A stretch of DNA of 64,000 nucleotides from positions 124,001-188,000 of the forward strand of contig SVFD01000001.1 in NCBI GenBank assembly GCA_015057025.1, written 5' to 3'. The DNA is from Lachnospiraceae bacterium (GTDB lineage: Bacteria; Bacillota; Clostridia; Lachnospirales; Lachnospiraceae). The position numbers were made by a program, and so were the translations under genes. Positions 16,258 to 35,951 of this stretch are shown here, in pieces. Within the stretch, counting starts at the first letter, position 1. Every line of letters begins with the position of its first letter. The notes under the pieces were generated by a model. The model had not been told where the DNA came from and searched no databases. It saw only the letters and a list, made by a program, of their open reading frames with translations.

Positions 16258-16284
16258 TTAGAGCTGATAATTTAGGAGGAATAT

Positions 16285-19000: not shown

Positions 19001-19018
19001 AGAGGAGAAAGAATCAAG

Positions 19019-20158: not shown

Positions 20159-20183
20159 GTAAAAAAAGCATGGCAGGGAAGCT

Positions 20184-20315
20184 TTGAAAACATATATTGA
20201 AGAACGCGCAATTGAAGTCGCAAATTATATTATTGAGCAGAATGCTACAGTGAGGCAGACAGCTAAAAAATTCGGAATCAGTAAGAGTACCGTACATATG
20301 GTGGTAACAATATAG
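20184..20315 (+). CDS. spoIIID: SpoIIID, N-terminal half (gene split by inserted element)
   Basis: A TTG start with AGGGA four bases upstream opens a frame reading KTYIEERAIEVANYIIEQNA then TVRQTAKKFGISKSTVH. This is the N-terminus of SpoIIID, the small mother-cell transcription factor that switches the sigmaE to sigmaK programme. After codon 38 the frame enters foreign sequence, adds five residues and stops at 20313. The break falls in the recognition helix of the HTH (SKSTVH|KD), so the 43-residue product should not bind DNA. The missing half is at 35802-35951, in frame across a 10-bp repeat. Confidence 0.9.
   Translation: MKTYIEERAIEVANYIIEQNATVRQTAKKFGISKSTVHMVVTI
20289..20298 (+). other. 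attL core of the spoIIID element
   Basis: ACCGTACATA here recurs at 35802-35811. Bases 20289-20297 encode Thr-Val-His of spoIIID in the same phase as at the other copy. Joining the element's two ends recreates an attP site with an imperfect inverted repeat around GTACATAT (ATTGTACCAACC on one side, GGTGGTAACAAT on the other), as expected for a large serine recombinase. Confidence 0.85.
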
Positions 20316-20366
20316 AACGGTGGAAAGGCAAGGTTGTTTGGGTAGTTGAATAGGGGTAATGTAAGG

Positions 20367-20399
20367 ACACTTCCGGTAGAAAATCGGAAGTGTTTTTTG
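20367..20399 (+). terminator. Intrinsic terminator just inside the element
   Basis: ACACTTCCG (20367-20375) pairs with CGGAAGTGT (20385-20393), followed by TTTTT. It would stop the truncated spoIIID transcript 52 bases after the premature stop codon and shield the element from that promoter. Confidence 0.85.
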
Positions 20400-20489
20400 T
20401 ATAACAGATAGAATTTTGTGCGGCTTTACGCCATTAACTGTTTCAAATCAAACTTTATAAATGCATTTGTAGTACTTGATTCTTTCTAA

Positions 20490-20885
20490 CTAATGTTTTT
20501 TGTTTATCAATTGCCCAGACGCAATTCTTACAGCATCGAAATCCCTATGCAAAATAAATCCGTTCAAGTCTATCACTTCATGAATTAAATATTTAGTTCC
20601 CTGCTTATCGCCATACTTATACACAACCGATGTACCGCCTTCGGTTGACGTGCGCGAACTCATAATTTTTCTGTTTAATAGTGAAAAATCATCTCCTTTT
20701 GCTTCGATTTGTCCTATTTTGTCTATTGTGTTTTTGTCTGTGTAATAGTTGCCATTTTTCATTTCAATTTTTGACAAAAAAGTGGATGTGTCTTCATGGT
20801 TTCTGATTGGCTTTCTACTACTTGTTTTGCCGGATGGCGTATTGCAGACCGAAATACTACTACTGTTGAAATTTGCATTGTCCAT
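20490..20885 (-). CDS. Unrecognised 131-residue protein of the element
   Basis: This gene faces away from the rest of the element. The N-terminal 40 residues are Ser/Asn-rich and probably disordered. The rest, with IGQIEAKGDDFSLLNRKI, TSVVYKYGDKQGTKYLIHEV and DLNGFILHRDFDAVRIASGQ, looks globular. No membrane segment or known motif is evident. GGAGGAAA lies six bases before the ATG, supporting translation. A second frame starting upstream at 20959 also has a strong ribosome binding site and overlaps its 5' end. Confidence 0.55.
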   Translation of the reverse strand: MDNANFNSSSISVCNTPSGKTSSRKPIRNHEDTSTFLSKIEMKNGNYYTDKNTIDKIGQIEAKGDDFSLLNRKIMSSRTSTEGGTSVVYKYGDKQGTKYLIHEVIDLNGFILHRDFDAVRIASGQLINKKH

Positions 20886-20959
20886 ATCAGATTTCCTCCA
20901 TTGATTGGCTGGGAGGAAACCTCACGGCGATACTTTGCTATAGTTCTGTGGCCATACAT
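20759..20959 (-). CDS. Possible short ORF overlapping the 131-residue gene
   Basis: An ATG at 20959 follows AGGAGG by eight bases, an excellent ribosome binding site. It opens a 66-codon frame beginning MYGHRTIAKYRREVSSQPIN. It overlaps the 131-residue gene in another frame. It may be a leader peptide that couples translation, the 5' part of one gene broken by a frameshift, or a chance frame. The composition after residue 25 is unconvincing. From about 20960 to 21190 I see no further gene on either strand. Confidence 0.3.
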   Translation of the reverse strand: MYGHRTIAKYRREVSSQPINGGNLIWTMQISTVVVFRSAIRHPAKQVVESQSETMKTHPLFCQKLK

Positions 20960-21192
20960 TTCGGAGTCCTCCTAATTTGCAAATGGCCAGCTTGCCCTAT
21001 ATAGCTGGTCTGTTAACTTGTTAATCTCACATGGTGCTTTCGGGCGCAGAAGTGATCAGTTTCTGCTCACATCCTTGTGAGAGAAAAGATTTTTAGTAAT
21101 CTCTTTGATGATTTAAGTATAGAGGAAATGCCAGGAATAAGATAACGATGGGTTTGAATGGCAATATTCTTGAAAAATGTTCAAAAGAGGGA

Positions 21193-21262
21193 TTCAAAAA
21201 TTAAAATATTCGTGGTAGAATGAAGTTATTCGGCAGAGGAATATTTTATTCGAGAGAGGAAT
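21193..21262 (+). promoter_or_regulatory. Promoter and 20-bp-spaced direct repeats before the XRE genes
   Basis: TTCAAA (21193-21198) and TAGAAT (21216-21221), 17 bp apart, form a moderate sigmaA promoter. Just downstream, TATTCGGCAGAGGAAT (21227-21242) and TATTCGAGAGAGGAAT (21247-21262) form a 14-of-16 direct repeat spaced by exactly 20 bp. Two helical turns suit an operator for the XRE proteins encoded next. The second copy overlaps the ribosome binding region. Confidence 0.5.
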
Positions 21263-21274
21263 GTTTGGCGATAT

Positions 21275-21886
21275 ATGGCATTTAATATAGAAACTACGAA
21301 AGAACGCTTGAGTGAACTTTTTAAAAATGAGTCACAAGAGGCTGTTGGGAAAAAATTAAATATGACGCAGGGAAATGTGAGTAAGTTGCTTACTGGAAAG
21401 CAGCATCCTACTGTTGAAACCATTTTTCAGATTGCAAAAGAATATAATGTTTCTACAGATTGGTTATTGGGGCTGACGGAGGAAAAGAAAATTGCGAAAC
21501 AAGATATGTCTTACGGTGATATCTTGAAAATGTTTTCGATATTAGGTGAAAAAGGAGCATTATGGCCATTTTGTAGTACCATGCATACTGTAGACGGTAT
21601 TGATAAGGAGTTGCCAATGGTTACTAATGTTGGGATAGGTGATGAAATTCTTCAATCGATTTTGTATGAGTGGAAAACCATGCTCCAAAGCCAAGAAGAT
21701 ATTTATCAGATTTGGTTGGATAAAAGACTTAAGGAATATGCAGAGATAGATTATATTTCTTGGGATGAAGATGTAAAAAACTTTTTTTATGAATGCAGAC
21801 CACTTCAAGGTGTTTCGCATGAATTTTTGAAGGCATTTTTCTCGGTATATAAAAAGAAGAATTGCCCAGGAGACAAAATCAAATAA
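21275..21886 (+). CDS. XRE-family regulator 1 of a tandem trio
   Basis: This 203-residue protein has an N-terminal HTH: SQEAVGKKLNMTQGNVSKLL, TGKQHPTVETIFQIAKEYNV, then STDWLLGLTEEKK. The C-terminal 130 residues are unlike any sensor domain I know. It is the first of three adjacent paralogues that share this N-terminus but differ afterwards. They lie directly upstream of hsdM in the same direction, so they probably control the restriction locus or the element's excision. AGAGAGG lies about 12 bases before the ATG, a long spacing. Confidence 0.8.
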   Translation: MAFNIETTKERLSELFKNESQEAVGKKLNMTQGNVSKLLTGKQHPTVETIFQIAKEYNVSTDWLLGLTEEKKIAKQDMSYGDILKMFSILGEKGALWPFCSTMHTVDGIDKELPMVTNVGIGDEILQSILYEWKTMLQSQEDIYQIWLDKRLKEYAEIDYISWDEDVKNFFYECRPLQGVSHEFLKAFFSVYKKKNCPGDKIK

Positions 21887-21918
21887 TAAGTTTTTTGATT
21901 CGATTAGTAGGTGATAGT

Positions 21919-22524
21919 ATGGCATTAGTAATAGATATAATTAAAGCTAGAATGAAAGAAGCCTTTGGACAGGATTCTCAAGAGACAGTTGGAAAGAAAT
22001 TGAATATGACACAGGGGAATGTAAGTAAGTTACTTTCCGGAACGCAGCAACCGACACTGGAAACAATATATCATGTTTCTGAAATATACGGAGTTTCTGT
22101 GGATTGGCTGTTAGGATTGTCTGATAAAAAGGAAATAGATAAATCATGCGAAGGAATTACATATGCTACCGCAGTAAGAAATTTGCATGAGTTAATACGA
22201 CATGGAGCATTAAAAATGGAGGAAAGTGCAAATGCAGTATCCTTTAAAGTCACTGATCCATTAATAAAGATGCTTACGAAGAAAAACGTGACGATATATA
22301 AAACGGATAAAGAACTTTATGATAATTGGAATGAAACAAAACTTGCTTTATTCCAGGATCGCCCTTTGATTTGGGAAGGTACTTGGAGTATGAATGGTTT
22401 GGATTTTTTGACTGGCGAAGCTGTGACAGAGGCAAATTGGTTAGAAGTATGGGATGAAGCTAAAAAGGTCGAAAATGATTATGCGGAATTTATGAGTGAT
22501 AATACAGGACCTTTTGGAGAGTGA
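21919..22524 (+). CDS. XRE-family regulator 2 of a tandem trio
   Basis: This 201-residue protein has an HTH very close to the first copy (SQETVGKKLNMTQGNVSKLL, then SVDWLLGLSDKKE) and a divergent C-terminal domain. The ATG at 21919 is preceded by TAGGTGATAG; a longer frame from 21862 would begin within the end of the upstream gene. Its TGA overlaps a GTG that could start the third regulator. The N-terminal likeness and divergent tails suggest duplication followed by change of ligand or partner specificity. Confidence 0.8.
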   Translation: MALVIDIIKARMKEAFGQDSQETVGKKLNMTQGNVSKLLSGTQQPTLETIYHVSEIYGVSVDWLLGLSDKKEIDKSCEGITYATAVRNLHELIRHGALKMEESANAVSFKVTDPLIKMLTKKNVTIYKTDKELYDNWNETKLALFQDRPLIWEGTWSMNGLDFLTGEAVTEANWLEVWDEAKKVENDYAEFMSDNTGPFGE

Positions 22525-22535
22525 GATACGAAACT

Positions 22536-23234
22536 ATGGATGATTTAAAGGATATAGTCAAAGAGCGATTGGCTGAATTGTTTGAAAAAGAAACGCAAGA
22601 AATTACTGCTGGAAGATTGCAGACATCACAAGGGAATGTTAGTAAATGGCTAACGGGTACACAGTTGATTACTACAGACAATTTATATCGGATTGCAAGG
22701 ACTTATAATGTGTCTATTGATTGGATTTTGGGTCTCAGTGATGTGAGAGATATAAATGGTTTGAATATAGATGATCTTACATATGAGCAGGTTGCGAGAA
22801 TTATGGATAGGCTAATCATTAACGATAATATGAAAATCCTAAATCATAAGGAAGCAGTGCGGCAAACCAGTGGCGATGATTATGGTGAAATTGAATCCAG
22901 TGGAATAAGAATTGAAATCCGCCCGGATGACAATTCAGACTATATAAAAATTAAGGACAGATTGCTTTCCTACATGTTGAGACGACGTTACAAAATATAT
23001 GATGTTGGAAATGACATGGTAGATTACTGGTATAATAGTTCATTGCCAAATTTCAAGGGGCTGAAAGTTGTGAATAATACAGGAAATATGCAAGATGCAC
23101 TTGATGCCAAGGGATGGGCAAATTTACAAGATGCTGACTGGATAAGTTTAATAGAAGAAATATCAAAACTTACCGAGGAAGAAAGAACCGCATTGATACA
23201 GGAAATCGAAAATAAGAAAAAGGAAGGTCAATAA
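22536..23234 (+). CDS. XRE-family regulator 3 of a tandem trio
   Basis: The protein has 232 residues. The HTH (TQEITAGRLQTSQGNVSKWL, then SIDWILGLSDVRD) is more divergent than in the first two. The C-terminal part is charged and ends in a Lys/Glu helix. The start may be ATG at 22536 or GTG at 22521, which overlaps the preceding stop as GTGA and would couple translation. HsdM starts two bases after the stop, so regulator and methylase are co-transcribed. Confidence 0.8.
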   Translation: MDDLKDIVKERLAELFEKETQEITAGRLQTSQGNVSKWLTGTQLITTDNLYRIARTYNVSIDWILGLSDVRDINGLNIDDLTYEQVARIMDRLIINDNMKILNHKEAVRQTSGDDYGEIESSGIRIEIRPDDNSDYIKIKDRLLSYMLRRRYKIYDVGNDMVDYWYNSSLPNFKGLKVVNNTGNMQDALDAKGWANLQDADWISLIEEISKLTEEERTALIQEIENKKKEGQ

Positions 23235-23235
23235 C

Positions 23236-24759
23236 ATGGCAACAAAGAATACCGCGGATATAGGATTTGAAAAAGAAATATGGGATGCTGCGTGTGTCCT
23301 TAGAGGAAATATGGATGCTTCTGAATATAAAAATGTTATTCTGGGACTGATTTTCTTGAAATATATTTCGGATAGTTTTGATGAAAAGTACCAAGAACTA
23401 AAAGATGAAGGTGAGGGATTTGAAGAGGATAAAGATGAATACTATTCTGAAAATATTTTCTATGTTCCTGCTGGTGCAAGGTGGAAAGATATAGCAGCAG
23501 TATCACATAAAGAGGAAATTGGTACAGTTATAGATAAGGCAATGATTGCTATTGAATCAGAAAATAAGAAATTAAAGGGAATTCTGCCTAAGAATTTTGC
23601 ACGTCAAGAGCTTGATAAACGTAGACTGGGTGAAGTAGTAGACCTTTTTACTAATATTAAAATGACTGACGGAGCAGATGAGAAAGATTTATTAGGCAGA
23701 ACATACGAATACTGTCTTAGAAATTTTGCTGAACAGGAAGGTAAGAATGCTGGACAATTTTATACACCATCCTGTGTTGTTAGAACGATTGTAGAAATCT
23801 TGCAACCGTTTAATGGTCGTGTATATGACCCTTGCTGTGGTGCCGGTGGAATGTTTGTACAGTCTGCGGAATTTATTAAGCACCATCAGGGATTGATAAA
23901 TGATATTTCTGTTTATGGGCAGGAATCGAATCCTACCACATGGAAGATGGCTAAAATGAATCTGGCAATCAGAGGCATTGACTGTAATTTGGGAGAGTTT
24001 CCGGAAGATACATTTTTAAGTGACCAGCATCCGACCATGAGGGCAGATTATGTAATGGCGAATCCACCCTTCAATCTTTCCTCTTGGGGGGCTGATAAAT
24101 TGAAAGAAGACCAGAGATGGAAATATGGAACACCTCCGGCTGGAAATGCGAACTATGCATGGATTCAGCATATGATTTGGCATTTGGCACCAAATGGAAA
24201 GATGGGTATGGTGCTTGCAAATGGTTCTCTTTCTTCACAGAGTGGTGGCGAAGGCGAAATACGAAAAAATATTATTGAAGAAGATTTGGTAGAATGTATT
24301 ATTTCTCTTCCAAGTCAGTTATTCTACACAACGGGTATTCCTGTTTGCTTGTGGTTTTTATCAAAGAATAAAAAGCAGAAGGGTAAGACTTTGTTCATTG
24401 ACGCACGTAAAATGGGTACAATGGTTACGCGTGCATTGCGAGAGTTGACGGATGGTTCTGATGATCCGGAGAAGAATGATATTGGAAAACTGGCTGCAAC
24501 ATATAATGCTTTTGTCGCTGGTACATTAGAAGATGTTCCGGGATTCTGTGCTGTTGTTACAACAGAAAAGATTGCTGAGCAGGATTATATTTTAACACCG
24601 GGAAGATATGTTGGGATAGAAGAACAGGAAGATGATGGAGAACCCTTTGAGGAAAAGATGGCCAGATTGACCACAGAGTTATATGATTTGTTTAAGGAAT
24701 CCCACAAGTTGGAAAATGAAATTAAAAAGAAACTTGCAGCTATCGGATATGGCGAATAA
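23236..24759 (+). CDS. hsdM: Type I restriction-modification DNA methyltransferase subunit HsdM
   Basis: The protein has 507 residues. The N-terminal HsdM domain (EKEIWDAACVLRGNMDASEY, ILGLIFLKYISDSFDEKY) precedes the N6-adenine methyltransferase domain. That domain has the SAM motif VYDPCCGAGGMFVQ and the catalytic NPPF in DYVMANPPFNLSSW, with GQFYTPSCVVR before it. It forms M2S with HsdS to methylate adenine in a bipartite site. AAAAAGGAAGG precedes the ATG. HsdS follows after 13 bases. Confidence 0.96.
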   Translation: MATKNTADIGFEKEIWDAACVLRGNMDASEYKNVILGLIFLKYISDSFDEKYQELKDEGEGFEEDKDEYYSENIFYVPAGARWKDIAAVSHKEEIGTVIDKAMIAIESENKKLKGILPKNFARQELDKRRLGEVVDLFTNIKMTDGADEKDLLGRTYEYCLRNFAEQEGKNAGQFYTPSCVVRTIVEILQPFNGRVYDPCCGAGGMFVQSAEFIKHHQGLINDISVYGQESNPTTWKMAKMNLAIRGIDCNLGEFPEDTFLSDQHPTMRADYVMANPPFNLSSWGADKLKEDQRWKYGTPPAGNANYAWIQHMIWHLAPNGKMGMVLANGSLSSQSGGEGEIRKNIIEEDLVECIISLPSQLFYTTGIPVCLWFLSKNKKQKGKTLFIDARKMGTMVTRALRELTDGSDDPEKNDIGKLAATYNAFVAGTLEDVPGFCAVVTTEKIAEQDYILTPGRYVGIEEQEDDGEPFEEKMARLTTELYDLFKESHKLENEIKKKLAAIGYGE

Positions 24760-24772
24760 GAGGTGAAAACTT

Positions 24773-25981
24773 ATGGTTTTTGAAGAAATATTGGCTGAAA
24801 ATCTTTTAGAAGAAATATCAATGGGACCGTTTGGTTCAAACATAAAAAAAGAATGCTTTACCGATTCTGGAGTGGCAGTGCTCAATGGTAGTAATTTGGT
24901 TGGATTTTCTTTGAATGAAGATACGTTTGGCTATGTTACCGAGGAAAAGGCAGATTCTTTAGGGAAAGCAAATGCATCCAGGGGAGATGTTGTAATAACT
25001 CATCGAGGAACATTGGGGCAAGCGGTGTTTATTCCACAAAATTCAACACGTGACAGATATGTTATTTCGCAGAGTCAGTTTAGGGTCAAATGCAATGAAA
25101 GAATACTGCCTGAATACATGGTGTATTATCTTCATACACCGCAGGGAAGACATAAACTTTTAGCGAATGCATCACAGGTGGGAGTACCGGCATTAGCAAG
25201 AGCCACGTCAACATTTAAGAAGATTGTATTTGAAGTTCCCGATATTAAGTATCAGGAAAAAGTGGTTTCATTTTTGGAATTGATACGAGAGAAAATTGAA
25301 AAGAATAGTGTTATAAACAATAATTTACTGGAGCAAGTGCTCGCTATATATCGTAATAGTTTTGTTAATACCATCAATGCTGAGCGTAAAACATGTCGTG
25401 CTGATGAGTATTTTGATATTTCTATTGGTAAAACACCGCCAAGAAAAGAAACTCAATGGTTTAGCACTAATCCTGAAGATGTAAATTGGGTATCAATCTC
25501 GGATATGGGGACTTGCGGTCTTTACATAAGCAGCACTTCTGAGCAATTAACAAAGGAAGCTGTTGAGCGACACAATGTAAAAGTCGTACCAGATAATACA
25601 GTTTTACTTAGCTTTAAACTCACAGTTGGCAGAATAGCTATTACAAATGGTGAAATGACCACCAATGAAGCTATAGCACATTTCAAGACTGAAAAAAAGG
25701 TAATAAATGAATATCTCTATTGTTATCTGAAGTGCTTTAACTATCAATCTATGGGAAGTACATCATCAATCGCAACAGCAGTAAACTCAAAGATAATCAA
25801 AGGTATGCCTTTTGTTGTTCCAACCGATGATGAGGTGGAAGAATTTCATGAAATTGTTGCACCAATGTTTGCTCAAATAAAGGCTAACCAAATTGAAATT
25901 GAAAGTTTAGCAACACTAAGAGATACTCTTCTGCCGAAACTAATGTCGGGTGAAATAGATGTATCCAGCATTGAAGTTTAA
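24773..25981 (+). CDS. hsdS: Type I restriction specificity subunit HsdS (copy 1)
   Basis: This 402-residue protein has two target-recognition domains (about 1-150 and 200-350). Each is followed by a conserved helix: IREKIEKNSVINNNLLEQVL in the middle and ESLATLRDTLLPKLMSGEID at the end. The helices set the spacing of the half-sites. The DNA of the central helix contains a 25-bp stretch identical to the second hsdS gene, and the 3' ends of both genes match past their stops. AGAGGTG precedes the ATG. Confidence 0.95.
   Translation: MVFEEILAENLLEEISMGPFGSNIKKECFTDSGVAVLNGSNLVGFSLNEDTFGYVTEEKADSLGKANASRGDVVITHRGTLGQAVFIPQNSTRDRYVISQSQFRVKCNERILPEYMVYYLHTPQGRHKLLANASQVGVPALARATSTFKKIVFEVPDIKYQEKVVSFLELIREKIEKNSVINNNLLEQVLAIYRNSFVNTINAERKTCRADEYFDISIGKTPPRKETQWFSTNPEDVNWVSISDMGTCGLYISSTSEQLTKEAVERHNVKVVPDNTVLLSFKLTVGRIAITNGEMTTNEAIAHFKTEKKVINEYLYCYLKCFNYQSMGSTSSIATAVNSKIIKGMPFVVPTDDEVEEFHEIVAPMFAQIKANQIEIESLATLRDTLLPKLMSGEIDVSSIEV
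25313..25337 (+). repeat. 25-bp direct repeat in hsdS copy 1
   Basis: The 25 bases here, containing AACAATAATTTACTGGAGCA, are identical to 27573-27597 in the second hsdS. They encode INNNLLEQ of the central conserved helix. Both copies have the same orientation, so crossover would delete the recombinase gene between them and fuse the two specificity genes. Confidence 0.85.
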
Positions 25982-26010
25982 GCTACTAAATTATTGTTTA
26001 CTATACTTAT

Positions 26011-26052
26011 AACTCCTATCAACGGCAGGAGTTAATCAAAAGAACTGCCGTT
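26011..26052. promoter_or_regulatory. Overlapping inverted repeats before the tyrosine recombinase
   Basis: AACTCCT (26011-26017) pairs with AGGAGTT (26027-26033). AACGGCAG (26021-26028) pairs with CTGCCGTT (26045-26052). The two hairpins share bases and exclude each other. No T-tract follows, so this is more likely an RNA switch or a recombinase binding site than a terminator. Confidence 0.45.
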
Positions 26053-26087
26053 GCGTGTCGTTCTCTAAAAATAAAGGAGATACGACT

Positions 26088-27071
26088 ATGAAGCAAAAAC
26101 TAATTAACGATGTTGTCAGTGATATGTTGCCATATCTGAACAACGCACAAATGGAAAGACTGCAAATAGTGATGCAGCATGTACTTTTTGAGTATGAAAT
26201 TACCGATAAGGGTAATAAAGAAACTTCTACGGAGCAGGATTTTGTAGAACTGTTTTTATCAGCTAAGCGAATAGAAGGCTGCTCCGAGAAGTCCTTAAAA
26301 TACTATAGAGCTACTATCGATGCAATGATTGTTGGTATAGGTAAAGAAGTGAAGCATATTACAACGGATGATATTCGTGTGTATTTGACTGACTATCAGG
26401 CGAAAAAACAATCCAGTAGGGTTACGATTGATAATATCCGCAGAATTTTATCTAGTTTTTTCTCATGGCTGGAAGATGAAGATTATATTTTGAAAAGTCC
26501 GGTCAGAAGGATTCATAAAGTTAAAACCGCAAGCAATATAAAGGAAACATATTCGGATGAAGCACTGGAGCTTATGCGTGATAATTGTGATGAAATTCGA
26601 GATCTGGCAATCATTGATATGTTGGCATCAACTGGAATGAGAATTGGGGAAATGGTTCTTTTGAATCGTGAAGATATAGATTTTAATGAAAGAGAGTGTA
26701 TTGTGTTTGGCAAAGGGGATAAGGAAAGAATTGTATATTTTGATGCCAGAACTAAAATACATCTACAAGAATATTTGAATGGCAGAGAAGACGATAATGT
26801 AGCTTTGTTTGTATCGCTTAAGGCACCGTTTAATCGTGTAACAATCGGTGGCATAGAAGCGAGACTTCGTAAGTTTGGAAAAAAATTAGGATTGCAAAAG
26901 GTACATCCACATAAGTTTAGACGCACACTTGCAACTATGGCAATAGATAAGGGTATGCCAATAGAGCAGCTTCAACAGCTTTTAGGGCATAAACGAATAG
27001 ATACGACCTTGCAATATGCTATGGTCAAGCAGAGTAATGTTAAGATTGCTCATAGAAAATATATCGGATAG
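26088..27071 (+). CDS. Tyrosine recombinase (phage-integrase family)
   Basis: The protein has 327 residues. A SAM-like N-terminal core-binding domain (LFLSAKRIEGCSEKSLKYYR) precedes the catalytic domain. The residues are visible as Arg in ASTGMRIGEMVLL, Lys in GKGDKERIVYF, HxxR in HPHKFRRTLAT, His in LQQLLGHKRIDTT and the nucleophile Tyr in TLQYAMV. It lies between two hsdS genes, the position of recombinases that shuffle type I specificity genes. AAAGGAGAT precedes the ATG at 26088; a longer frame from 26055 runs through the hairpin region. Confidence 0.92.
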   Translation: MKQKLINDVVSDMLPYLNNAQMERLQIVMQHVLFEYEITDKGNKETSTEQDFVELFLSAKRIEGCSEKSLKYYRATIDAMIVGIGKEVKHITTDDIRVYLTDYQAKKQSSRVTIDNIRRILSSFFSWLEDEDYILKSPVRRIHKVKTASNIKETYSDEALELMRDNCDEIRDLAIIDMLASTGMRIGEMVLLNREDIDFNERECIVFGKGDKERIVYFDARTKIHLQEYLNGREDDNVALFVSLKAPFNRVTIGGIEARLRKFGKKLGLQKVHPHKFRRTLATMAIDKGMPIEQLQQLLGHKRIDTTLQYAMVKQSNVKIAHRKYIG

Positions 27072-27080
27072 AGAGGTAGA

Positions 27081-28214: not shown

Positions 28215-28281
28215 GCCACTAAATTATTGTTTATAACACTAAGATAAAACAAATTTTAACATAAATAGGAGGTGAAGATTT

Positions 28282-31200
28282 ATGTCCAGTTTTAACGAAT
28301 CAAGTTATGAAAACTCTATAGTAGAGTTGCTTGAAAGCCTCGGATATACACACCTTTATGGACCTGACGTAAAGAGAGATACACGTAATCCTTTATACGA
28401 AGAGCAGCTAAGGAGTTCGTTGGAATCCATCAATCCGAAGTTGCCGGCGGTAGCCATTGATGAGGCTATCATGAAGATTAAGGAATATGAGGCAGGCAGC
28501 CTTGTGTCCAAGAATGAAATCTTTACAGATTACATTCAGAATGGCGTTACGGTATCATTTCAGCAAAATGGAGAAGAAGTCAGTGAAATTGTAAGACTGG
28601 TGGACTATGATAGTCCGGCAAAAAATAGTTTTATTGTGGCAAACCAGTGGACATACGAGGAATATGAAACAAAACGTCCGGATGTGGTTATATTCCTGAA
28701 CGGTATGCCTGTTGTTGTGATGGAATTAAAGTCTCCGAAAGCTGATTCGGTTACGATTGACGACGCATATCAGCAGATTCAGAATTATAAGAAGGCTATA
28801 GAGAGCTTTTTTATTTACAATGCATTCTGTGTGATTAGTGACCAGTCGCAGACGAAGGCTGGTACTATCACTGCATCGATTGACCGTTTTATGGAATGGA
28901 AGACTGTTGATGGGGATTATGAGGATACAAAGTTTGCAGATTTTACAACTTTGATAAAAGGTATGTTTGCAAAGGATAGATTTCTTGATATCTTACATAA
29001 TTTTATCTGCTTCTCAAAGGAAATTACGGGGGATGCTAAGATATTGGCGGCATACCATCAGTATTTTGCTGTAAAGAAAGCAGTAGAATCTACCAGAAAA
29101 GCAAGCGCAGATGGCGGAGATGGTAGAGGAGGTGTATTCTGGCATACACAAGGTAGTGGTAAATCCCTGTCTATGGTTTTCTATGCAAAATATTTGCAGG
29201 AAGCATTGAACAGCCCAACGATTGTTGTTATTACAGATAGAAATGATTTGGATGACCAGTTGTTTGCCCAGTTCTCAAAATGTAAAGATTTCTTGAGACA
29301 GACTCCAGTACAGGCAGAAAAAAGACGTTTATCAGAAGATGAGAAAAAGAACGGCTCCAAGACGATTGCCCTGATGGACTGGTTGGATGGAAGAACTGCA
29401 AATGGTATCATCTTTACTACCATGCAAAAATTTGAAGAGAGCGCAGAACCTCTCTCTACAAGAAGAAATATTGTGGTAATGGCGGATGAAGCGCATAGAA
29501 GCCAATATGGTTTTGAGGAACGTGTTAATGCCAAGACGGGTAAGATTACCATTGGCAATGCGAGACGTATCAGAAATGCACTACCACATGCAACTTACAT
29601 AGGATTTACAGGAACACCGATTGAACTGGAAGACAGAAATACATTCGAGGTATTCGGTAATTACATAGATATTTATGATATGTCTCAGGCAGTAGCGGAT
29701 GGTGCGACCAGACCGATTTATTATGAGAGCCGAGTAATTAAACTGGAACTTGACCCAGAGATTGTGGCACAGATTGATGAAACGTATGAACGCCTGAAAG
29801 CCAATGCGAATGAGATAGACATTGAAAAGAGCAAACATGAGTTGGCTCATATGGACAGCGTCCTTGGTACTCCTAAGGTGCTTAATTCTTTATGCACAGA
29901 CATCTTGGAACATTATGAAAGCTGCCGACAGTATGAACAGACTGGCAAGGCCATGATTGTTGCGTATTCCAGACCGATTGCAGTGAAGATATATCATAAA
30001 ATTCTTGAAATGCGTCCGGGGTGGGAGAATAGGGTCAAAATTATTATGACAGGAGATAACAAAGATCCTGTTGAATGGAAGGAACTGACCGGAAATAAAT
30101 CTTACAGAGAAAGCCTTGCAAGAGAATTTAAGGATAATGACAGTGAATTTAAGATTGCTATTGTAGTTGATATGTGGCTGACAGGTTTTGATGTTCCGTC
30201 AATGTCTACTATGTATATCTTTAAGCCGATGAAGGGACATAATCTGATGCAGGCTATCGCCCGTGTTAATCGTGTGTTTAAAGATAAAGAGGGAGGTCTG
30301 ATTGTTGATTACATTGGAATTGCGTCTGCGTTGAAGGCAGCCATGAAACAATATACAGAATCTGACCAGAAGAAATTCAGTAACATGGATGTGGCAAAGA
30401 CTGCATACCTGAAATTCCAAGAAAAGTTATCTGTATGTCGTGATTTAATGCATGGATATGATTATAGCGATTTCATGACAACTGAGAGTGACCTGCGAAG
30501 AGCGAATCTCATAACAGGTGGTGTGAACTTCCTGTCTGCTCCGGAAAATGCAGAAACGCTAGAAAATTATCTGACTGAATGCTATATGATGCGACAGGCA
30601 TTTTCATTGTCAAAGAGTATAGCGACAGCAGATGAGAGACGAGAAGAGGCATATTTTGAGACGGTCAGGTCAGTATTGATTAAGGTAGTTAAGCCAGGCC
30701 CATTATCCTTTAAGGAGATTAACGCACAAATCAATGAACTGTTAAAACAGAGTGTGCAGAGTGATGGGGTTATCAACCTATTTACGGATGTGGATACAGA
30801 GTTTAATCTGTTCAATACAGCTTTTATGGAAGAAGTGGCAAAAATGCCGGAAAAGAACCTGTCCATAGAATTGCTGAAGAAATTGATTGCTGAACAGGTA
30901 AAGATTTATAAGAGAACCAACATTGTAAAATCGCAGGAATTTTCATCTATGCTTGACAGGGTGGTTAAATCTTATTTGAATGGGATGCTAACCAATGAAG
31001 AAGTAATAGAAGAGCTGATGAAGATGGCTCAGGACATCAGTAACGCACATAAGGCTGGTGATGAAATGGGCCTGTCGGATGAAGAACTTGCTTTTTATGA
31101 TGCATTGACAAGACCGGAAGCAGTAAAAGATTTCTATACGAATGACCAGCTTATTGCAATCACAAGAGAGCTGACAGAAGAACTTCGCAGTTCACGTACT

Positions 31201-31413
31201 GTTGACTGGGAAAAGAAAGAATCTGCAAGAGCGTCCATGAGGAAGAAAGTAAAGAGACTGCTCAAAAAATACAAATATCCGCCGGAAGGAATGGAAGACG
31301 CATTGAGAATTGTCATTGAACAGTGCGAAATGTGGGTGGATAATGAAGACCATATTACGGCAGCAAGCAGAAGGATGGCAGCATATTATTCTGCGCTTGC
31401 GGACAATAACTAA
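28282..31413 (+). CDS. hsdR: Type I restriction endonuclease subunit HsdR
   Basis: The protein has 1043 residues. The N-terminal nuclease domain has the PD-(D/E)xK elements in RPDVVIFLNGMPVVVMELKS. The superfamily 2 translocase follows, with Walker A in FWHTQGSGKSLSMVF, DEAH in VVMADEAHRSQYGFEE, motif III in YIGFTGTPIE and motif VI in QAIARVNRVF. The C-terminal helical domain contacts HsdM. It cleaves unmethylated DNA after ATP-driven translocation. It is full length with no disruption. A terminator follows nine bases after the stop. Confidence 0.97.
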   Translation: MSSFNESSYENSIVELLESLGYTHLYGPDVKRDTRNPLYEEQLRSSLESINPKLPAVAIDEAIMKIKEYEAGSLVSKNEIFTDYIQNGVTVSFQQNGEEVSEIVRLVDYDSPAKNSFIVANQWTYEEYETKRPDVVIFLNGMPVVVMELKSPKADSVTIDDAYQQIQNYKKAIESFFIYNAFCVISDQSQTKAGTITASIDRFMEWKTVDGDYEDTKFADFTTLIKGMFAKDRFLDILHNFICFSKEITGDAKILAAYHQYFAVKKAVESTRKASADGGDGRGGVFWHTQGSGKSLSMVFYAKYLQEALNSPTIVVITDRNDLDDQLFAQFSKCKDFLRQTPVQAEKRRLSEDEKKNGSKTIALMDWLDGRTANGIIFTTMQKFEESAEPLSTRRNIVVMADEAHRSQYGFEERVNAKTGKITIGNARRIRNALPHATYIGFTGTPIELEDRNTFEVFGNYIDIYDMSQAVADGATRPIYYESRVIKLELDPEIVAQIDETYERLKANANEIDIEKSKHELAHMDSVLGTPKVLNSLCTDILEHYESCRQYEQTGKAMIVAYSRPIAVKIYHKILEMRPGWENRVKIIMTGDNKDPVEWKELTGNKSYRESLAREFKDNDSEFKIAIVVDMWLTGFDVPSMSTMYIFKPMKGHNLMQAIARVNRVFKDKEGGLIVDYIGIASALKAAMKQYTESDQKKFSNMDVAKTAYLKFQEKLSVCRDLMHGYDYSDFMTTESDLRRANLITGGVNFLSAPENAETLENYLTECYMMRQAFSLSKSIATADERREEAYFETVRSVLIKVVKPGPLSFKEINAQINELLKQSVQSDGVINLFTDVDTEFNLFNTAFMEEVAKMPEKNLSIELLKKLIAEQVKIYKRTNIVKSQEFSSMLDRVVKSYLNGMLTNEEVIEELMKMAQDISNAHKAGDEMGLSDEELAFYDALTRPEAVKDFYTNDQLIAITRELTEELRSSRTVDWEKKESARASMRKKVKRLLKKYKYPPEGMEDALRIVIEQCEMWVDNEDHITAASRRMAAYYSALADNN

Positions 31414-31421
31414 ATGAATTG

Positions 31422-31460
31422 GCGGCTTTTGGAAAATAAACCAAGAGCCGCTATATTTTA
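31422..31460 (+). terminator. Intrinsic terminator after hsdR
   Basis: GCGGCTTTT (31422-31430) pairs with AAGAGCCGC (31443-31451), followed by TATATTTTA. It closes the restriction operon. Confidence 0.7.
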
Positions 31461-31678
31461 TGGACTTTAAAGTACTAGTAGCGCTAGTGACTTTTCCAAA
31501 AATCAAGAGAAAAGTCCTTTTTAAAAACAGGTGACTTCATATCATAAGTTGTTAAGAAGTAAATATGCATGACAAGGATTCGGGTTCTAGGTCTCCTAGT
31601 GTGAACGCCCTGGGCGGGAAGTTTTTTGCTTAAAGTTATGCAACTTTAGGCGTATCCTGCTGGGGTTTATTTTTGTGC
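31461..31678. other. Non-coding spacer with small hairpins
   Basis: No credible gene is visible. The stretch has short hairpins such as CTAGG/CCTAG near 31588, CGCCC/GGGCG near 31608 followed by a T-rich run, and TAAAGTT/AACTTTA near 31631. It lies between the restriction operon and the small TTG-start gene and may hold further regulatory signals of the element. Confidence 0.4.
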
Positions 31679-31797
31679 AGTCTCATTTTGCGAGAATAGT
31701 CTCGTTTTGTGAAAAAGCCTGTATTTACTGGGTTTGTAGCCGTTTCACAATTTGAGACTGGCTAATTGTAAGTTTTACGAGTTCAAAAAAAGAGACT
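31679..31797. repeat. Cluster of AGTCTC motifs in both orientations
   Basis: AGTCTC occurs at 31679-31684 and 31698-31703. Its complement GAGACT occurs at 31754-31759 and 31792-31797. The middle two extend to a near-palindrome: AGTCTCGTTTTGTGAAA on the left and TTTCACAATTTGAGACT on the right. The arrangement resembles protein-binding iterons of a mobile element, upstream of a small gene. Confidence 0.55.
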
Positions 31798-31960
31798 AGG
31801 ATTTTCTCAAAAAATAGACAAAAAAAGTTTGCACTTTTTTAGCAATCAGCTTATTTTGACCCTAAGTACTAAGTGTAAGACAAACAACAGGTATAACCTG
31901 AGAATTAATCTCATAGTATTGGAAAGAAGGACAAGCAAGAGAAGGAGGTGGAGATTCCGC

Positions 31961-32185
31961 TTGAAGCAAAGGAAATTGAATTATTGCTTTTACAATCCGA
32001 ATTCGGCGGAGGATACCGCTGAATTCTTGTGTAAGCTTTTGATTGAAGCAAATGCGGGTAAGGTTGAAAGAGCGATTGAAGAAGCTGCATCGAAGTGTGC
32101 AGAAGAGAGTGAATACATAGCAGAGCCGGAGAAAATGGAAGTGATGAAAGAGACAGTGAGTATAAGACGGAGAAGAGCGAGGTAG
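31961..32185 (+). CDS. Small conserved protein of the element, TTG start
   Basis: This 74-residue protein begins at TTG 31961, eight bases after GGAGGTGG. It reads KQRKLNYCFYNPNSAEDTAE, FLCKLLIEANAGKVERAIEE. The NYCFYNPN...A..L.K...EAN..K pattern is familiar from short genes next to recombinases in Firmicutes mobile elements, but its biochemical role is not established. The acidic middle and basic tail suit a small protein-protein or DNA-binding factor. It is one candidate for the directionality factor of the serine recombinase. Confidence 0.65.
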   Translation: MKQRKLNYCFYNPNSAEDTAEFLCKLLIEANAGKVERAIEEAASKCAEESEYIAEPEKMEVMKETVSIRRRRAR

Positions 32186-32247
32186 AGATGTCTTGCTTTT
32201 CGTACTTATAAAGAATGTAAAGAAAGAACTTAAATTTTGAAGAGAGA

Positions 32248-32349
32248 TTTGAGTTGTTTTTTGAGTTTTTGATAAGAAAGTGAAGAAACTCAAATTATTT
32301 GAGATGGAATTTGAGTTTCTATTTCAGTTCATAAAATGTTTTTTGAGTT
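32248..32349. repeat. Cluster of TTTGAGTT motifs
   Basis: TTTGAGTT or TTTGAG occurs at 32248, 32260, 32297, 32310 and 32342, and the inverted AACTCAAA at 32287. GAAACTCAAATT and AATTTGAGTTTC form a hairpin across 32285-32319. From 32186 to 32408 no gene is visible. The cluster mirrors the AGTCTC cluster on the other side of the small gene. Confidence 0.5.
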
Positions 32350-32408
32350 CCGTACAATACTGCTTGATTAATGCCAAGTAAAAATATAAAATGAGTCATA
32401 GGAAGTTA

Positions 32409-32444
32409 TTGTTTAGTCATAGAATTTAGGTATAGACATACAAT
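32409..32444 (+). promoter_or_regulatory. Promoter region with overlapping sigmaE-like and sigmaA-like elements
   Basis: CATACAAT (32437-32444) is identical to the -10 octamer of the spoIIID promoter. TCATAGA, 13 bp upstream at 32417-32423, keeps the ATA core of a sigmaE -35. An alternative sigmaA reading is TTGTTT (32409-32414) and TATAGA (32431-32436), 16 bp apart. Either would drive the AlbA_2 gene at 32483. Confidence 0.4.
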
Positions 32445-32482
32445 AATGATGATACGAAAAATATAACAAAGGGGCTGATGAT

Positions 32483-33835
32483 TTGAATTTAGGGATTGAA
32501 ACAGAAACATTAGAATTTAAAAAATCCACTGGTGAGTTAAAAGAAGCAGTGCAGTCAATTTGTGCAATTTTGAATAAACATCAGCATGGAGAATTATATT
32601 TTGGAGTAAAGCCTGACGGAATGGTAATAGGACAAGTTGTTACAGAGGAATCTTTACGAGAAGTTAGTCAGAAAATCAAAAATTTTATTGAGCCAAAGAT
32701 ATACCCGGAAATCAACAAAGTGGTTATAGATGGTAGAGATTGTATTCATGTAAAATTTGAAGGTAACCAGGCTCCATATTTTGCATATGGGGTTGCAAAG
32801 ATTCGTGTTGCAGATGAGGATTTAACCATGTCTCCAGAGCAGATAACTGAATTGCTATTACGTAGTGGTAGGGAAGGAAATCGTTGGGAAAGCCTTGTGT
32901 CCAATAAGACGGTTGATGACATCGACGAGGAACTTTTAAAGAAATACACAACACAGGCGCACGAGGTAGGAAGAATCGCAATTTCGTATACTGATAAAGA
33001 GACTGTTTTAAATCAGTTAGAATTAACAGAAGGAAATGCTTTACTAAATGCAGGAAAAGTACTGTTTAGCGATGATATTGTACAAGACTTGCAGATGGCG
33101 ATTTTTGCTACAAATGAAAGATTGACTTTTAATGATATCCAGCGTCATCATGGACCGGTGTTAAAGCTGGTAGATATAGCGGAGAGTTATATTAAAAGCA
33201 ACATTCATTGGAGAGTAGAATTTACTGGAGCCTTACAGCGTACAGAGATTCCTGAGATTCCGGTGGATGCAATTCGTGAGGCATTATTAAATTCGTTCTG
33301 TCATAAGGACTATGCATCCGGTCAAAGTAATGAGGTTGCAATCTATAAAGATAGGGTTGAGATTTATAATCCCGGAGCTTTTCCTGAAGGATATGAGCCA
33401 CAAGACTTTATTGATAAGGCAGAGAGACCGATTCGTAGAAACCCTATGATTGCAAGAATGCTTTACTATTCCAAGGATATTGAGAGCTTTGGAACGGGAT
33501 TAAAGCGTATAGCAGAAGCCTGTGACGCAGCCGGAGTCAGATATGAATTTAAGAAAATGAAATCCGGATTTGTGGTTTGCTTTTATCGGTCAGAAGAAAA
33601 AGCCGATAAAAAGCCGATAAAAACCGATAAAAAGCCGATAAAAACTGATAGACAAGAAGTGATTGTTCAATATGTAAAAGAACATAGTAGTATCAGTAAT
33701 ATGGAGGCAAGAGAACTGTTAGGGCTTGCAGATTCAACGGTCAAGAGATTACTCAAAGAAATGGTAGATGATGGCATTTTAACGGTAGAAGGTGAACGCA
33801 AAGCTAGAAGATACTTGTTGAAAGAGGAAGGTTAA
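32483..33835 (+). CDS. AlbA_2 / divergent HATPase transcriptional regulator
   Basis: The protein has 450 residues. The N-terminal AlbA_2 domain (TLEFKKSTGELKEAVQSICA, HGELYFGVKPDG) precedes a GHKL-type ATPase domain with EALLNSFCHKDY and FGTGLKRIAEACDAAG. A Lys/Asp repeat (DKKPIKTDKKPIKTD) links to a C-terminal winged helix (ISNMEARELLGLADSTVKRL). Such proteins are called RecG-like or AAA_4 regulators. The start is TTG at 32483, eight bases after AAGGGG; an ATG five bases earlier stops at once. Confidence 0.85.
   Translation: MNLGIETETLEFKKSTGELKEAVQSICAILNKHQHGELYFGVKPDGMVIGQVVTEESLREVSQKIKNFIEPKIYPEINKVVIDGRDCIHVKFEGNQAPYFAYGVAKIRVADEDLTMSPEQITELLLRSGREGNRWESLVSNKTVDDIDEELLKKYTTQAHEVGRIAISYTDKETVLNQLELTEGNALLNAGKVLFSDDIVQDLQMAIFATNERLTFNDIQRHHGPVLKLVDIAESYIKSNIHWRVEFTGALQRTEIPEIPVDAIREALLNSFCHKDYASGQSNEVAIYKDRVEIYNPGAFPEGYEPQDFIDKAERPIRRNPMIARMLYYSKDIESFGTGLKRIAEACDAAGVRYEFKKMKSGFVVCFYRSEEKADKKPIKTDKKPIKTDRQEVIVQYVKEHSSISNMEARELLGLADSTVKRLLKEMVDDGILTVEGERKARRYLLKEEG
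33600..33650 (+). repeat. In-frame tandem repeat in the AlbA_2 gene
   Basis: A unit of about 21 bp built from CCGATAAAAAGCCGATAAAA is repeated twice plus a partial copy, encoding KKPIKTD repeats between the ATPase and winged-helix domains. Copy-number slippage in steps of seven codons is possible. Confidence 0.7.
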
Positions 33836-33848
33836 TAGGGAGGAATGT

Positions 33849-34049
33849 ATGACGATTTGGCATGTGCAAAAATTATATACATCTAATGGCGCTTTCCATA
33901 CAGTGTTACCATATGATTTCAGAGGGACTATGACGAGTACTTTTAAGATGAAGAATGGTATCAGACAGATGATAAAATTCCTGTCAGATAGTCGTTTGAC
34001 AGAGAGAGCGGCTCATTCCTTATGTACAAGAAAGAATCGGAATTTGTAG
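33849..34049 (+). CDS. Small 66-residue protein upstream of the serine recombinase
   Basis: GGGAGG lies five bases before the ATG, and the gene starts 13 bases after the AlbA_2 stop, so the two are probably co-transcribed. The product (MTIWHVQKLYTSNGAFHTVL, then FKMKNGIRQMIKFLSDSRLT, ERAAHSLCTRKNRN) is basic, with no known domain. Size, charge and position next to the recombinase fit a recombination directionality factor, but there is no sequence-based proof, and it could be a decayed fragment. Confidence 0.45.
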   Translation: MTIWHVQKLYTSNGAFHTVLPYDFRGTMTSTFKMKNGIRQMIKFLSDSRLTERAAHSLCTRKNRNL

Positions 34050-34111
34050 GTGTGCCCAAGTTATATGGAAGCATAGGATAAAACGCAGAAAAGAATTGAG
34101 TCAAGATTTAG

Positions 34112-34155
34112 ACAAGGTGTAGCTGAATGTAATCAGTTTGCACCTTGTTTTTTTG
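34112..34155 (+). terminator. Intrinsic terminator before the recombinase
   Basis: ACAAGGTG (34112-34119) pairs with CACCTTGT (34141-34148), followed by a run of T. It separates the AlbA_2/66-residue unit from the recombinase gene, which then needs its own promoter. Confidence 0.8.
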
Positions 34156-34172
34156 ATAAAAAGAGATATAAT
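34145..34172 (+). promoter_or_regulatory. Candidate sigmaA promoter of the serine recombinase
   Basis: TTGTTT (34145-34150) and TATAAT (34167-34172) are 16 bp apart and end 45 bases before the start codon. The -35 overlaps the right arm of the terminator. I see no sigmaE-like pair here. Confidence 0.45.
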
Positions 34173-34216
34173 AGTCGTAACAGAACGCTACAACTCTAAC
34201 AGAAAGGTAGTTAAAC

Positions 34217-35812
34217 ATGAACATAGCAGCATATTGTCGAGTTTCCACAGATAAAGAAGACCAGCTCAACAGTTTAGAGACTCAGAAAGAGTTTTTCTTA
34301 GAATACACGAAACGCACAGGGGACAACCTTATTAAATTATATGCAGACGAAGGTATTTCAGGAACCAAAATCAAAAATCGTAAAGAATTCCAGCGTATGC
34401 TTGCAGACGCTGAGAAAGGTTTATTTGATATGGTAGTGGTAAAGGATATCTCCCGTTTTGCCAGAAACACGGTTGACTTGTTACAGAGCGTCCGTAAGTT
34501 AAAAGCGCTTGGCATCGAGACACAGTTCCTTACTGCTAACATGACAAGTATGGGTAACTCTGAATTCGTATTAACTATCTTTGGTGCATTGGCGCAGGAA
34601 GAAAGTGCGAACACATCTAAGCGTATCAAATTCGGTAAGAAGATGAATGCAGAAAAAGGTCGAGTTCCAAACATTGTTTACGGATACGATAAAACCATCG
34701 GTGATTATTTCAATCTATCCATCAATGAAGAGGAAGCAAAGGTTATTCGCCAGATGTACAAGTGGTACACAGAAGAAGGCTTTGGTGGTGCAAAGATTGC
34801 AAACATGCTTAATGAACGTGGTGTGAAAACCAAGAGAGGAAATAATTGGAGTCAGAATTCTGTATGTCGCATTCTGACTAATGAGATATATACCGGAAAG
34901 ATTATTAATGGAAAAGAAGAGGTTGCAGATTTCTTGACTGGACAGAGAAAGGAAAAAGATGAATCTGAATGGTTAGTAACCATTCGTCCGGAACTTCGTA
35001 TTATTGATGATGAAATATTTGATAGAGCACAGGAGATTTTAAAGGGGCGTCATGATTCCTTTAAGATGACACATGAACGTCAGAGCAACAAGCATTTATT
35101 CTCCACATTGATTAAATGTAAAGATTGTGGTTGGTCTTTCCGTAGAACAGTTCGTCAGTATAAGAACACTTATATTCGTTGGGTATGTTCCGGTCACAAT
35201 GGTCGTGGTGCAGATAGTTGCCCAAATGCAATTACAGTGGATGAAGAAGAATTGATTCAGGTATTGCAGGAGTACTTTCAGGATGTGTTCAGTAAAAAGA
35301 AGAAAGTAATTGAACATGTGATCAAAGAGTTCCAACGTGTTTATAAAGCTAAAGATGAGAACGTGGAATATGAAAAGGAATTAACTACAGAGTTAAATCG
35401 ACTTCGTAAGGCGCGTGAGAAATATATGGATATGTACACCGATGATTTGATTTCCAGAGAGGAATTAAATGAGAAAATCGGTGGCATGAGAAAAGAGATT
35501 GATAGATTGGAAAATGAACTGAAAATGGTGTCTTACAATCTGACAAAGGGAGAGCAGTTAGAAGCGATTCTTAACAGCACCTTCAAAGAGATGGACGATA
35601 TCACAGATGTTCATGAAATGACAAATACACAGTTAAAACGTCTTATCAATAAAATCGAAGTGGACAAGGATGGTAATGTGGATATTTACTTGCGTCTTAT
35701 CGGTGACTTGGGATTAGATGACACTGTGCTTATCGAAGGCGCAGAAGACAGCGAAAACAACTCAGAAACAATCCCAACTAAAACCATTCCAAATTGTACC
35801 AACCGTACATAA
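34217..35812 (+). CDS. Large serine recombinase (skin-type, SpoIVCA-like)
   Basis: The protein has 531 residues. The resolvase catalytic domain carries the nucleophile in AAYCRVSTDKEDQ (Ser10) and the arginine in VVKDISRFARNTVDL. The recombinase domain follows (INEEEAKVIRQMYKWYTEEG), then a zinc ribbon (CKDCGWSFRR and CSGHNGRGADSC) and a coiled coil (about 380-450), as in large serine integrases. AGAAAGGTAG precedes the ATG. The stop (35810-35812) lies on the right attachment core, so the last codons belong to the att site. It probably excises the element and restores spoIIID. Confidence 0.95.
   Translation: MNIAAYCRVSTDKEDQLNSLETQKEFFLEYTKRTGDNLIKLYADEGISGTKIKNRKEFQRMLADAEKGLFDMVVVKDISRFARNTVDLLQSVRKLKALGIETQFLTANMTSMGNSEFVLTIFGALAQEESANTSKRIKFGKKMNAEKGRVPNIVYGYDKTIGDYFNLSINEEEAKVIRQMYKWYTEEGFGGAKIANMLNERGVKTKRGNNWSQNSVCRILTNEIYTGKIINGKEEVADFLTGQRKEKDESEWLVTIRPELRIIDDEIFDRAQEILKGRHDSFKMTHERQSNKHLFSTLIKCKDCGWSFRRTVRQYKNTYIRWVCSGHNGRGADSCPNAITVDEEELIQVLQEYFQDVFSKKKKVIEHVIKEFQRVYKAKDENVEYEKELTTELNRLRKAREKYMDMYTDDLISREELNEKIGGMRKEIDRLENELKMVSYNLTKGEQLEAILNSTFKEMDDITDVHEMTNTQLKRLINKIEVDKDGNVDIYLRLIGDLGLDDTVLIEGAEDSENNSETIPTKTIPNCTNRT
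35802..35811 (+). other. attR core of the spoIIID element
   Basis: This is the second copy of ACCGTACATA. It is read in two frames here: as the last codons and stop of the recombinase (CGT ACA TAA), and as Thr-Val-His of spoIIID. Confidence 0.85.
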
Positions 35813-35951
35813 AGACGTAACGGAACGCCTGGAGGAAATTGATCCGTCTCTTGCGAAACGGGCAAGGGTTGTGTTGGATGTTAATAAGTCAGAGCGGCAT
35901 ATTCGTGGAGGAATGGCAACCAGAGAGAAATATTTACATCAGCATATATAA
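35802..35951 (+). CDS. spoIIID: SpoIIID, C-terminal half (gene split by inserted element)
   Basis: Read from the attachment core, the frame gives TVHKDVTERLEEIDPSLAKR, ARVVLDVNKSERHIRGGMAT, REKYLHQHI and TAA. This is the second half of SpoIIID: the end of the recognition helix (STVHKDVTERL) and the basic C-terminal tail (ERHIRGG). It has no ribosome binding site of its own and is silent unless joined to the 5' half at 20184-20297. The joined product has 84 residues, the family's usual length. No stop or frameshift is present, so the gene is recoverable rather than dead. Confidence 0.92.
   Translation, partial: TVHKDVTERLEEIDPSLAKRARVVLDVNKSERHIRGGMATREKYLHQHI

Follow-up and report, generated by a model that had tools for sequence, protein, structure and literature searches.

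A recurrent skin-like element in the sporulation gene spoIIID of Lachnospiraceae

We analysed a 64,000-nt stretch of the genome of a Lachnospiraceae bacterium (contig SVFD01000001.1, positions 124,001 to 188,000, forward strand), hereafter the window, in which a 15,513-bp element interrupts the sporulation gene spoIIID at its His38 codon (Table 1). The 5' half of the gene stays in frame from its TTG start at 20184 to the His codon CAT at 20295-20297. Two copies of the repeat ACCGTACATA start at 20289 and 35802, and neither strand of the window has a third. When the halves were joined in silico at this repeat, the frame remained open over 84 residues, and the product scored 129 bits against the SpoIIID model TIGR02844 (cut-off 111.5) as opposed to 58.5 for the 5' half alone. 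An earlier sequence-only reading of this DNA had proposed as much, namely in-frame halves that meet at an identical 10-bp repeat to give an unbroken SpoIIID, and had placed a large serine recombinase against the right repeat; both statements hold, and the recombinase stop codon (TAA, 35810-35812) lies across that repeat. Removal of the element would restore the spoIIID frame, and the recombinase is encoded by the element itself and adjoins one of its ends, as expected of a skin-type element in a split sporulation gene. An assembly artefact was ruled out by the same arrangement in a one-contig genome (G261); the recombinase also adjoins the spoIIID 3' half in multi-megabase contigs, for example at loci L113, L124 and L148.

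A second intact copy of spoIIID, which the earlier reading had proposed to look for, was not found in the host genome (2.65 Mb, 97.9% complete), where only the two halves match. Within the genus, spoIIID was matched in 6 of 31 genomes; five carry it intact, and it is split only in the window's genome. The left neighbours of all five intact copies match window positions 15936-20071. On the right, three of them (L003-L005) also share the hydrogenase-like gene of window position 36112, and L006 and L007 have other genes there. These loci represent the empty site. Compared with L003, L004 and L005 (three of the five intact congeners, L006 and L007 being left out), both window halves differ almost only at silent sites. 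The respective nonsynonymous (dN) and synonymous (dS) rates were 0.08, 0 and 0 and 1.0, undefined and 0.5 in the 5' half, and 0.05, 0.02 and 0.01 and 2.7, 1.2 and 1.7 in the 3' half.

The arrangement is no isolated case and recurs across many genera. Our family sample comprised 397 Lachnospiraceae genomes, 250 of which matched TIGR02844 and 209 of which passed its cut-off; 30 of the 41 matching genomes under the cut-off were re-examined. The His38 codon of spoIIID is cut in 23 of the 397 genomes, with both halves on one contig in 13, halves on two contigs in 5 and the evidence of one half in 5. None of the 30 re-examined genomes holds a spoIIID over the cut-off, that is, another intact copy. 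In G106, G161, G376 and, judging by its 3' half, G200, the gene is cut two codons further on (L080-L085; L055 is from G200). Upstream of the 3' half, L081 and L082 carry adjacent serine-recombinase-like open reading frames (ORFs), recognised by tblastn at 22-28% identity in three cases (two in L081, one in L082) and by eye in the others, and a second element class therefore seems to target spoIIID. The partial matches in G145 and G382 (L028 and L054) end away from the two known sites and are of unclear type: the former stops at a contig end and the latter is possibly a third insertion site. The match in G088 was judged by eye not to be SpoIIID. In a class sample of 391 genomes, 280 matched the model and 229 passed, and 15 of the 51 genomes below the cut-off were re-examined by match position only. 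Both halves lie on one contig in G472, G485, G558 and G715 and on two contigs in G483, G708, G725 and G772; G591 and G654 gave a 3' half only, G515 and G574 a 5' part only, and G546 a diverged full match.

The 13 elements contained within one contig measure 3.5 to 75 kb (only the ends were read in G136). All 13 were joined in silico, and the joined protein exceeded the SpoIIID cut-off in each of the 11 tested. A recombinase 46-96% identical to that of the window lies at the right end of every one, on the spoIIID strand, and the only other gene common to most of them encodes a small protein. Among the best 80 of at least 486 relatives found by a recombinase-alignment scan of public genomes, 77 loci contain a spoIIID 3' half without a stop. 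In 74 it stands directly beside the recombinase, starting between 67 bases before and 134 bases after the end of the recombinase match; the 5' half is also present in 18 of the 80. In L161, L163 and L165, which have the 5' half upstream, ~2.4-7.2 kb separate the recombinase from the 3' half, perhaps owing to extra right-end DNA from a second insertion. Locus L127 stops at the site. Close recombinase relatives with an attP-like arm occur in L104 and L118 without a spoIIID 3' half downstream; these are possibly secondary sites. Going by record titles, the element family occurs in Lachnospiraceae and Oscillospiraceae, and its cultured carriers include Blautia sp. An81 (L109), Schaedlerella arabinosiphila DSM 106076 (L124) and Agathobaculum butyriciproducens DSM 100391 (L131).

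Across the window and its relatives, no stop was found in any of 90 3' halves or 31 5' halves; some public loci duplicate the 13 elements (L109 is G058 and L091 is G317), so the 3' halves amount to fewer than 90 independent cases. Decayed halves had been named by the sequence-only reading as a sign of a dead insertion, in which a lineage losing sporulation would carry a spoIIID broken for good. Such a loss would agree with the genus at large, where 25 of 31 genomes lack a spoIIID match and 26 of 31 lack spoIVA, and with four family assemblies (G033, G229, G285 and G425) that hold the 5' half only and belong to the five judged from one half; a search with the 3' half found none in these four, where it may be unassembled or lost. 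The host of the window, as far as tested, retains its sporulation set. Its spoIVA is a single 507-aa frame, and two frames of 224 and 267 aa, which score highest with the sigK model, are taken from that rank as sigK-like and sigE-like, respectively; no genome passes the cut-off of that model. Further sporulation-type sigma genes are kept as well. With these genes in place, the silent divergence of the window halves, the recurrent cutting of one codon and the absence of stops, a dead insertion is very improbable. Full-length spoIVA was found in 29 of 29 genomes with a partial spoIIID (the unclear G145 and G382 among them), in 22 of 23 with an intact one (picked from the top scorers) and in 3 of 13 without spoIIID. 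Three genomes of the family sample, G042, G063 and G081, have full-length spoIVA yet no spoIIID match; the gene may be lost, unassembled or in undetected pieces.

The sigK-like gene of the host is one open, uninterrupted frame, unlike a sigK split by skin. Its product begins MKTFQQPLTSDEEAFY and, set against B. subtilis sigK, presumably has no pro-sequence. Neither a split sigK nor, seemingly, a pro-sequence thus gates sigmaK here, which fits the earlier suggestion that the switch acts one step before sigK.

In all 13 elements and in both phage contigs tested, the attP inverted repeat has its best-scoring centre between the C and the A of the CAT codon. The predicted crossover covers no more than this dinucleotide CA within the 10-bp repeat. 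G152 has CAA in its left copy and CAT in its right one, so that crossover at CA would restore the His codon. Upstream of the recombinase (window 34060-34216) lie repeats of the form GTAACAGAACG...TAACAGA that resemble attP half-sites and are present in relatives too; autoregulation is one possible role.

The small protein (31961-32185), to which the sequence-only reading made no reference, is likely the excision, or directionality, factor. Its listed forms in the family have 43-76 residues and the core KLNYRFHNPN. Among the 13 one-contig elements it was found in 10 by BLAST and in 11 by hidden Markov model (HMM); in G085 and G298, similar-looking short frames upstream of the recombinase scored below the HMM threshold (E-values 0.072 and 0.5). 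It is encoded in 68 of the 80 public loci. Ten of the 12 loci without it have less than 2 kb of upstream sequence, and L090 and L149 lack it despite 4.5 and 10 kb, respectively.

Of 70 small-protein upstreams (L170-L172 counted three times), 33 contain the pattern TATTT-N12/13-CATA, and of 80 recombinase upstreams none does; the shuffled mean is 0.06. Because this pattern was picked after ten of these sequences had been viewed, we also scored the 15-position sigmaE consensus printed in the accessible part of PMC3416734, which is that of B. subtilis and is applied here to Lachnospiraceae. At least 12 positions matched in 25 of 34 spoIIID upstreams, 26 of 68 small-protein upstreams and 13 of 76 recombinase upstreams, the corresponding rates in mononucleotide shuffles being 5.9%, 3.5% and 8.9%. 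Judged by its sequence, spoIIID would lie under a sporulation-type promoter, which matches 13 of 15 positions in the window. By eye, TATAAT-like elements precede the recombinase in several elements. The hexamer GGACAA, which resembles SpoIIID sites, precedes the small protein in 25 of 68 loci and the recombinase in 2 of 76. WWRRACARNY, a fuller SpoIIID consensus, was found upstream of the small protein in 11 of 68 (3.5 by shuffling), of the recombinase in 5 of 76 and of spoIIID in 9 of 34. The C. difficile-type box KRTAACARK, given in the accessible text of PMC5025042, precedes the small protein in 3 of 68 as opposed to 0.9 by shuffling.

These counts bear on which component is switched. In B. 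subtilis the recombinase SpoIVCA is under sigmaE and SpoIIID control (PMC5025042, in part), and we only infer the role of the small protein as a factor; developmental excision might accordingly be switched through the recombinase, with the small protein doing something else. The strict motif is missing from every recombinase upstream, the consensus matches there compare with a high shuffled rate, TATAAT-like elements are seen instead, and control of the B. subtilis type relies on SpoIIID, a protein that here could be made only after excision. We regard this alternative as scarcely credible. The sequence-only reading had pointed to the recombinase beside the site; control probably lies with the small directionality factor instead.

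We consider it highly probable that the window contains a mobile skin-like element that targets spoIIID and is excised in the mother cell by the recombinase together with a small, sigmaE-driven directionality factor. In growing cells, the large serine recombinase would keep the element integrated at the CA of the His38 codon. Once sigmaE is active in the mother cell, the small protein would be made, and the two proteins would excise the element precisely and rejoin spoIIID. SpoIIID from the rejoined gene would then activate the late sigmaE and sigK programme. Because the forespore keeps it, the element would be inherited. We infer both that sigmaE drives the small protein and that excision occurs, in the mother cell only.

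The closest parallel is skin-Cd of C. difficile, in which, according to the accessible text of PMC5025042, the recombinase CD1231 is expressed from sigmaA and the directionality factor CD1234 is under sigmaE and SpoIIID. Both cases combine an element in a mother-cell gene, a large serine recombinase and a small separate factor with a sigmaE-type promoter, factor and promoter alike being putative here, and C. difficile sigK has no pro-sequence (same source), as seems to be true of the sigK-like gene here. They differ in target, sigK there and spoIIID here, and CD1234 and the small protein are likened by role and description, not by sequence. A dependence like that of CD1234 on SpoIIID is out of the question here, where spoIIID itself is interrupted. 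Excision of the sigK skin needs SpoIIID in both B. subtilis and C. difficile (PMC5025042, in part); here SpoIIID does not exist before excision and cannot be required for it, so the circuit must differ. The B. subtilis skin likewise splits a mother-cell regulator gene in frame and uses a serine recombinase, but its target is sigK and it measures 48 kb (PMC3416734, in part) as opposed to 15,513 bp. Other intervening elements of sporulation genes are SP-beta in spsM (SprA/SprB) and gin in gerE, both in Bacillus, gin being a non-prophage element in the gene of a 74-aa regulator (PMC4191935 and PMC5595907, accessible parts). They interrupt other genes in Bacilli, and those parts describe no clade-wide family at one codon. 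The prophage-like yin in yabG of Clostridium botulinum, likened by description, also occupies a sporulation gene of a clostridium, though a different one (PMC10747680, in part). Intervening elements have thus been reported in sigK, spsM and gerE (PMC5595907, PMC6957869 and PMC4191935, in part) as well as yabG, and a prophage disrupting kamA has been described (PMC6957869, in part). In line with the earlier reading, no report of an element in spoIIID was found among the literature matches listed, from a search outside which most subscription journals and all preprints fall. For spore formation by the named carriers, the literature yielded nothing useful.

The family is mobile. Viral contigs L170-L173 carry a related recombinase, the small protein and an uncut attP. 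L173 has phage genes; the other three resemble a single phage, and L170-L172 are the only viral contigs with the exact attP pattern. Distances between recombinases correlate with those between spoIIID genes (Mantel r 0.34, p 0.001, 75 loci). In L140 and L141, however, the recombinases are 97% identical and the spoIIID 3' halves only 56%, an apparent transfer between hosts. The elements move yet land in the same spoIIID codon. Cargo varies and is partly defence. The window element carries type I restriction and G422 type II restriction with AriAB; G317 has an AbiH match and G261 a McrB-like one (AAA_5, type II restriction model), and the domains seen in G375, G202, G292 and G058 are unrelated to defence (20 cargo proteins scanned with PADLOC and ten with Pfam). 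Such mobility, the viral contigs and the changing cargo would also suit an ordinary mobile element or satellite that uses a conserved gene as its attachment site, leaves only in its own transfer cycle and lets sporulation proceed in cells that have lost it, free of mother-cell control. The unbroken halves and the retention of spoIVA in all genomes with a partial spoIIID argue otherwise, and a sigmaE-type motif on the likely factor would be unexpected without developmental control, although the viral L170 has this motif before its small protein too. On this evidence, an ordinary element is unlikely.

Several observations weigh against developmental excision by the recombinase and the small factor, besides the gaps in the genus and the lone 5' halves noted above. 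The small protein has no Pfam match and only weak PHROGs matches (E-value 0.045 or worse), and its model (two helices, mean predicted local distance difference test score 79, predicted template modelling score 0.41) has no fold match in PDB. Its promoter in the window is weak, 10 of 15 positions as opposed to 13 of 15 for spoIIID, and about half of the family lacks the strict sigmaE-type motif. No uncut attP was found in the 397 family genomes with up to two mismatches, using a pattern able to detect 9 of the 13 attP sites predicted from the elements. Two class genomes, G666 and G733, combine a 3' half with a weak 5' match containing three stops. Median dN/dS among split halves was 0.24 (3', 387 pairs) and 0.18 (5', 115 pairs; all pairs with dS 0.1-1.5), above the 0.08 of an intact control whose 4 pairs are too few to compare; some relaxation of selection is possible. 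Excision itself is predicted from DNA sequence.

The window element carries three regulators and, as cargo, restriction genes and a Schlafen-type protein (Table 1). The two hsdS genes flank a tyrosine recombinase (24773-28241), and a 26-nt inverted repeat (25306-25331 and 28216-28241, 96%) could allow switching of the specificity genes by inversion. A prophage was rejected: none of the 10 ORFs of at least 200 aa matched a phage gene for structure, packaging or lysis in PHROGs, the only shorter ORFs scanned being 20490-20885 and the small protein. The recombinase matches the Ccr models (CcrB at 161 bits, also CcrC and CcrA), which it shares with staphylococcal cassette chromosome (SCC) elements. 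An SCC cassette was also rejected, as the scores lie far under the model cut-offs (900, 900 and 700; 161 of 900 bits) and the target is a sporulation gene.

Table 1. Features of the split spoIIID locus and its element (window positions)
Feature	Position	Strand	Basis or remark
sigmaE-type promoter of spoIIID: GCATACTT (20130-20137), 12-nt spacer, TCATACAATG (20150-20159)	20130..20159	+	13/15 consensus positions
spoIIID 5' half, TTG start to His38 CAT	20184..20297	+	TIGR02844 positions 1-41
Left 10-bp repeat (attL)	20289..20298	+	predicted crossover CA 20295-20296
Intervening element, 15,513 bp	20295..35807	+	empty site with matching neighbours in relatives
Three helix-turn-helix (XRE-type) regulators	21275-21886, 21862-22524, 22521-23234	+	Pfam HTH_3; PHROGs transcription regulators
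Type I restriction-modification locus (cargo)	23236..31413	+	PADLOC on hsdM, first hsdS, hsdR; Pfam on all five genes
hsdM	23236-24759	+	PADLOC, Pfam
First hsdS	24773-25981	+	PADLOC, Pfam
Tyrosine recombinase between hsdS genes	26055-27071	+	Pfam
Second hsdS	27081-28214	+	Pfam
hsdR	28282-31413	+	PADLOC, Pfam
Weak sigmaE-type promoter of small protein: GTATAACC, 12 nt, TCATAGTATT	31891..31920	+	10/15 consensus positions; relatives match better
AAGGACAAGC, resembles SpoIIID binding box	31927..31936	+	putative
Likely recombination directionality factor, 74 aa, TTG start, Shine-Dalgarno GGAGGTGG at 31944	31961..32185	+	HMM homologues
Schlafen/AlbA_2, RecG-C-like ATPase and winged-helix protein, 450 aa (cargo)	32483..33835	+	Pfam
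Large serine recombinase, 531 aa	34217..35812	+	Pfam: Resolvase, Recombinase, zinc-ribbon domains
Right 10-bp repeat (attR)	35802..35811	+	predicted crossover CA 35808-35809
spoIIID 3' half, His38 to stop	35808..35951	+	CAT at 35808-35810

A broader reading is tentative, and we regard it as somewhat doubtful: mobile elements of one clade-wide family, phages included, would have specialised on the recognition-helix codon of spoIIID in gut Clostridia, the step from sigmaE to sigmaK would depend on excision, and SpoIIID may then shut the switch. Because GGACAA boxes adjoin the promoter of the small-protein factor, SpoIIID would repress that factor after excision. The spore, as the germ line, would retain the defence genes and other cargo, and the mother cell would lose them.

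For genome surveys, split genes mean that spoIIID can be scored as missing or truncated in genomes that retain the rest of the pathway. The spoIIID genes reported on gut phages (PMC12713726, accessible part) may, we suggest, include host half-genes beside an integrase. Relatives of the element at the same spot in many gut bacteria suggest that excision mending spoIIID is a normal step of spore formation. Since the family includes cultured strains, the gating of spore formation by DNA rearrangement in gut bacteria is directly testable.

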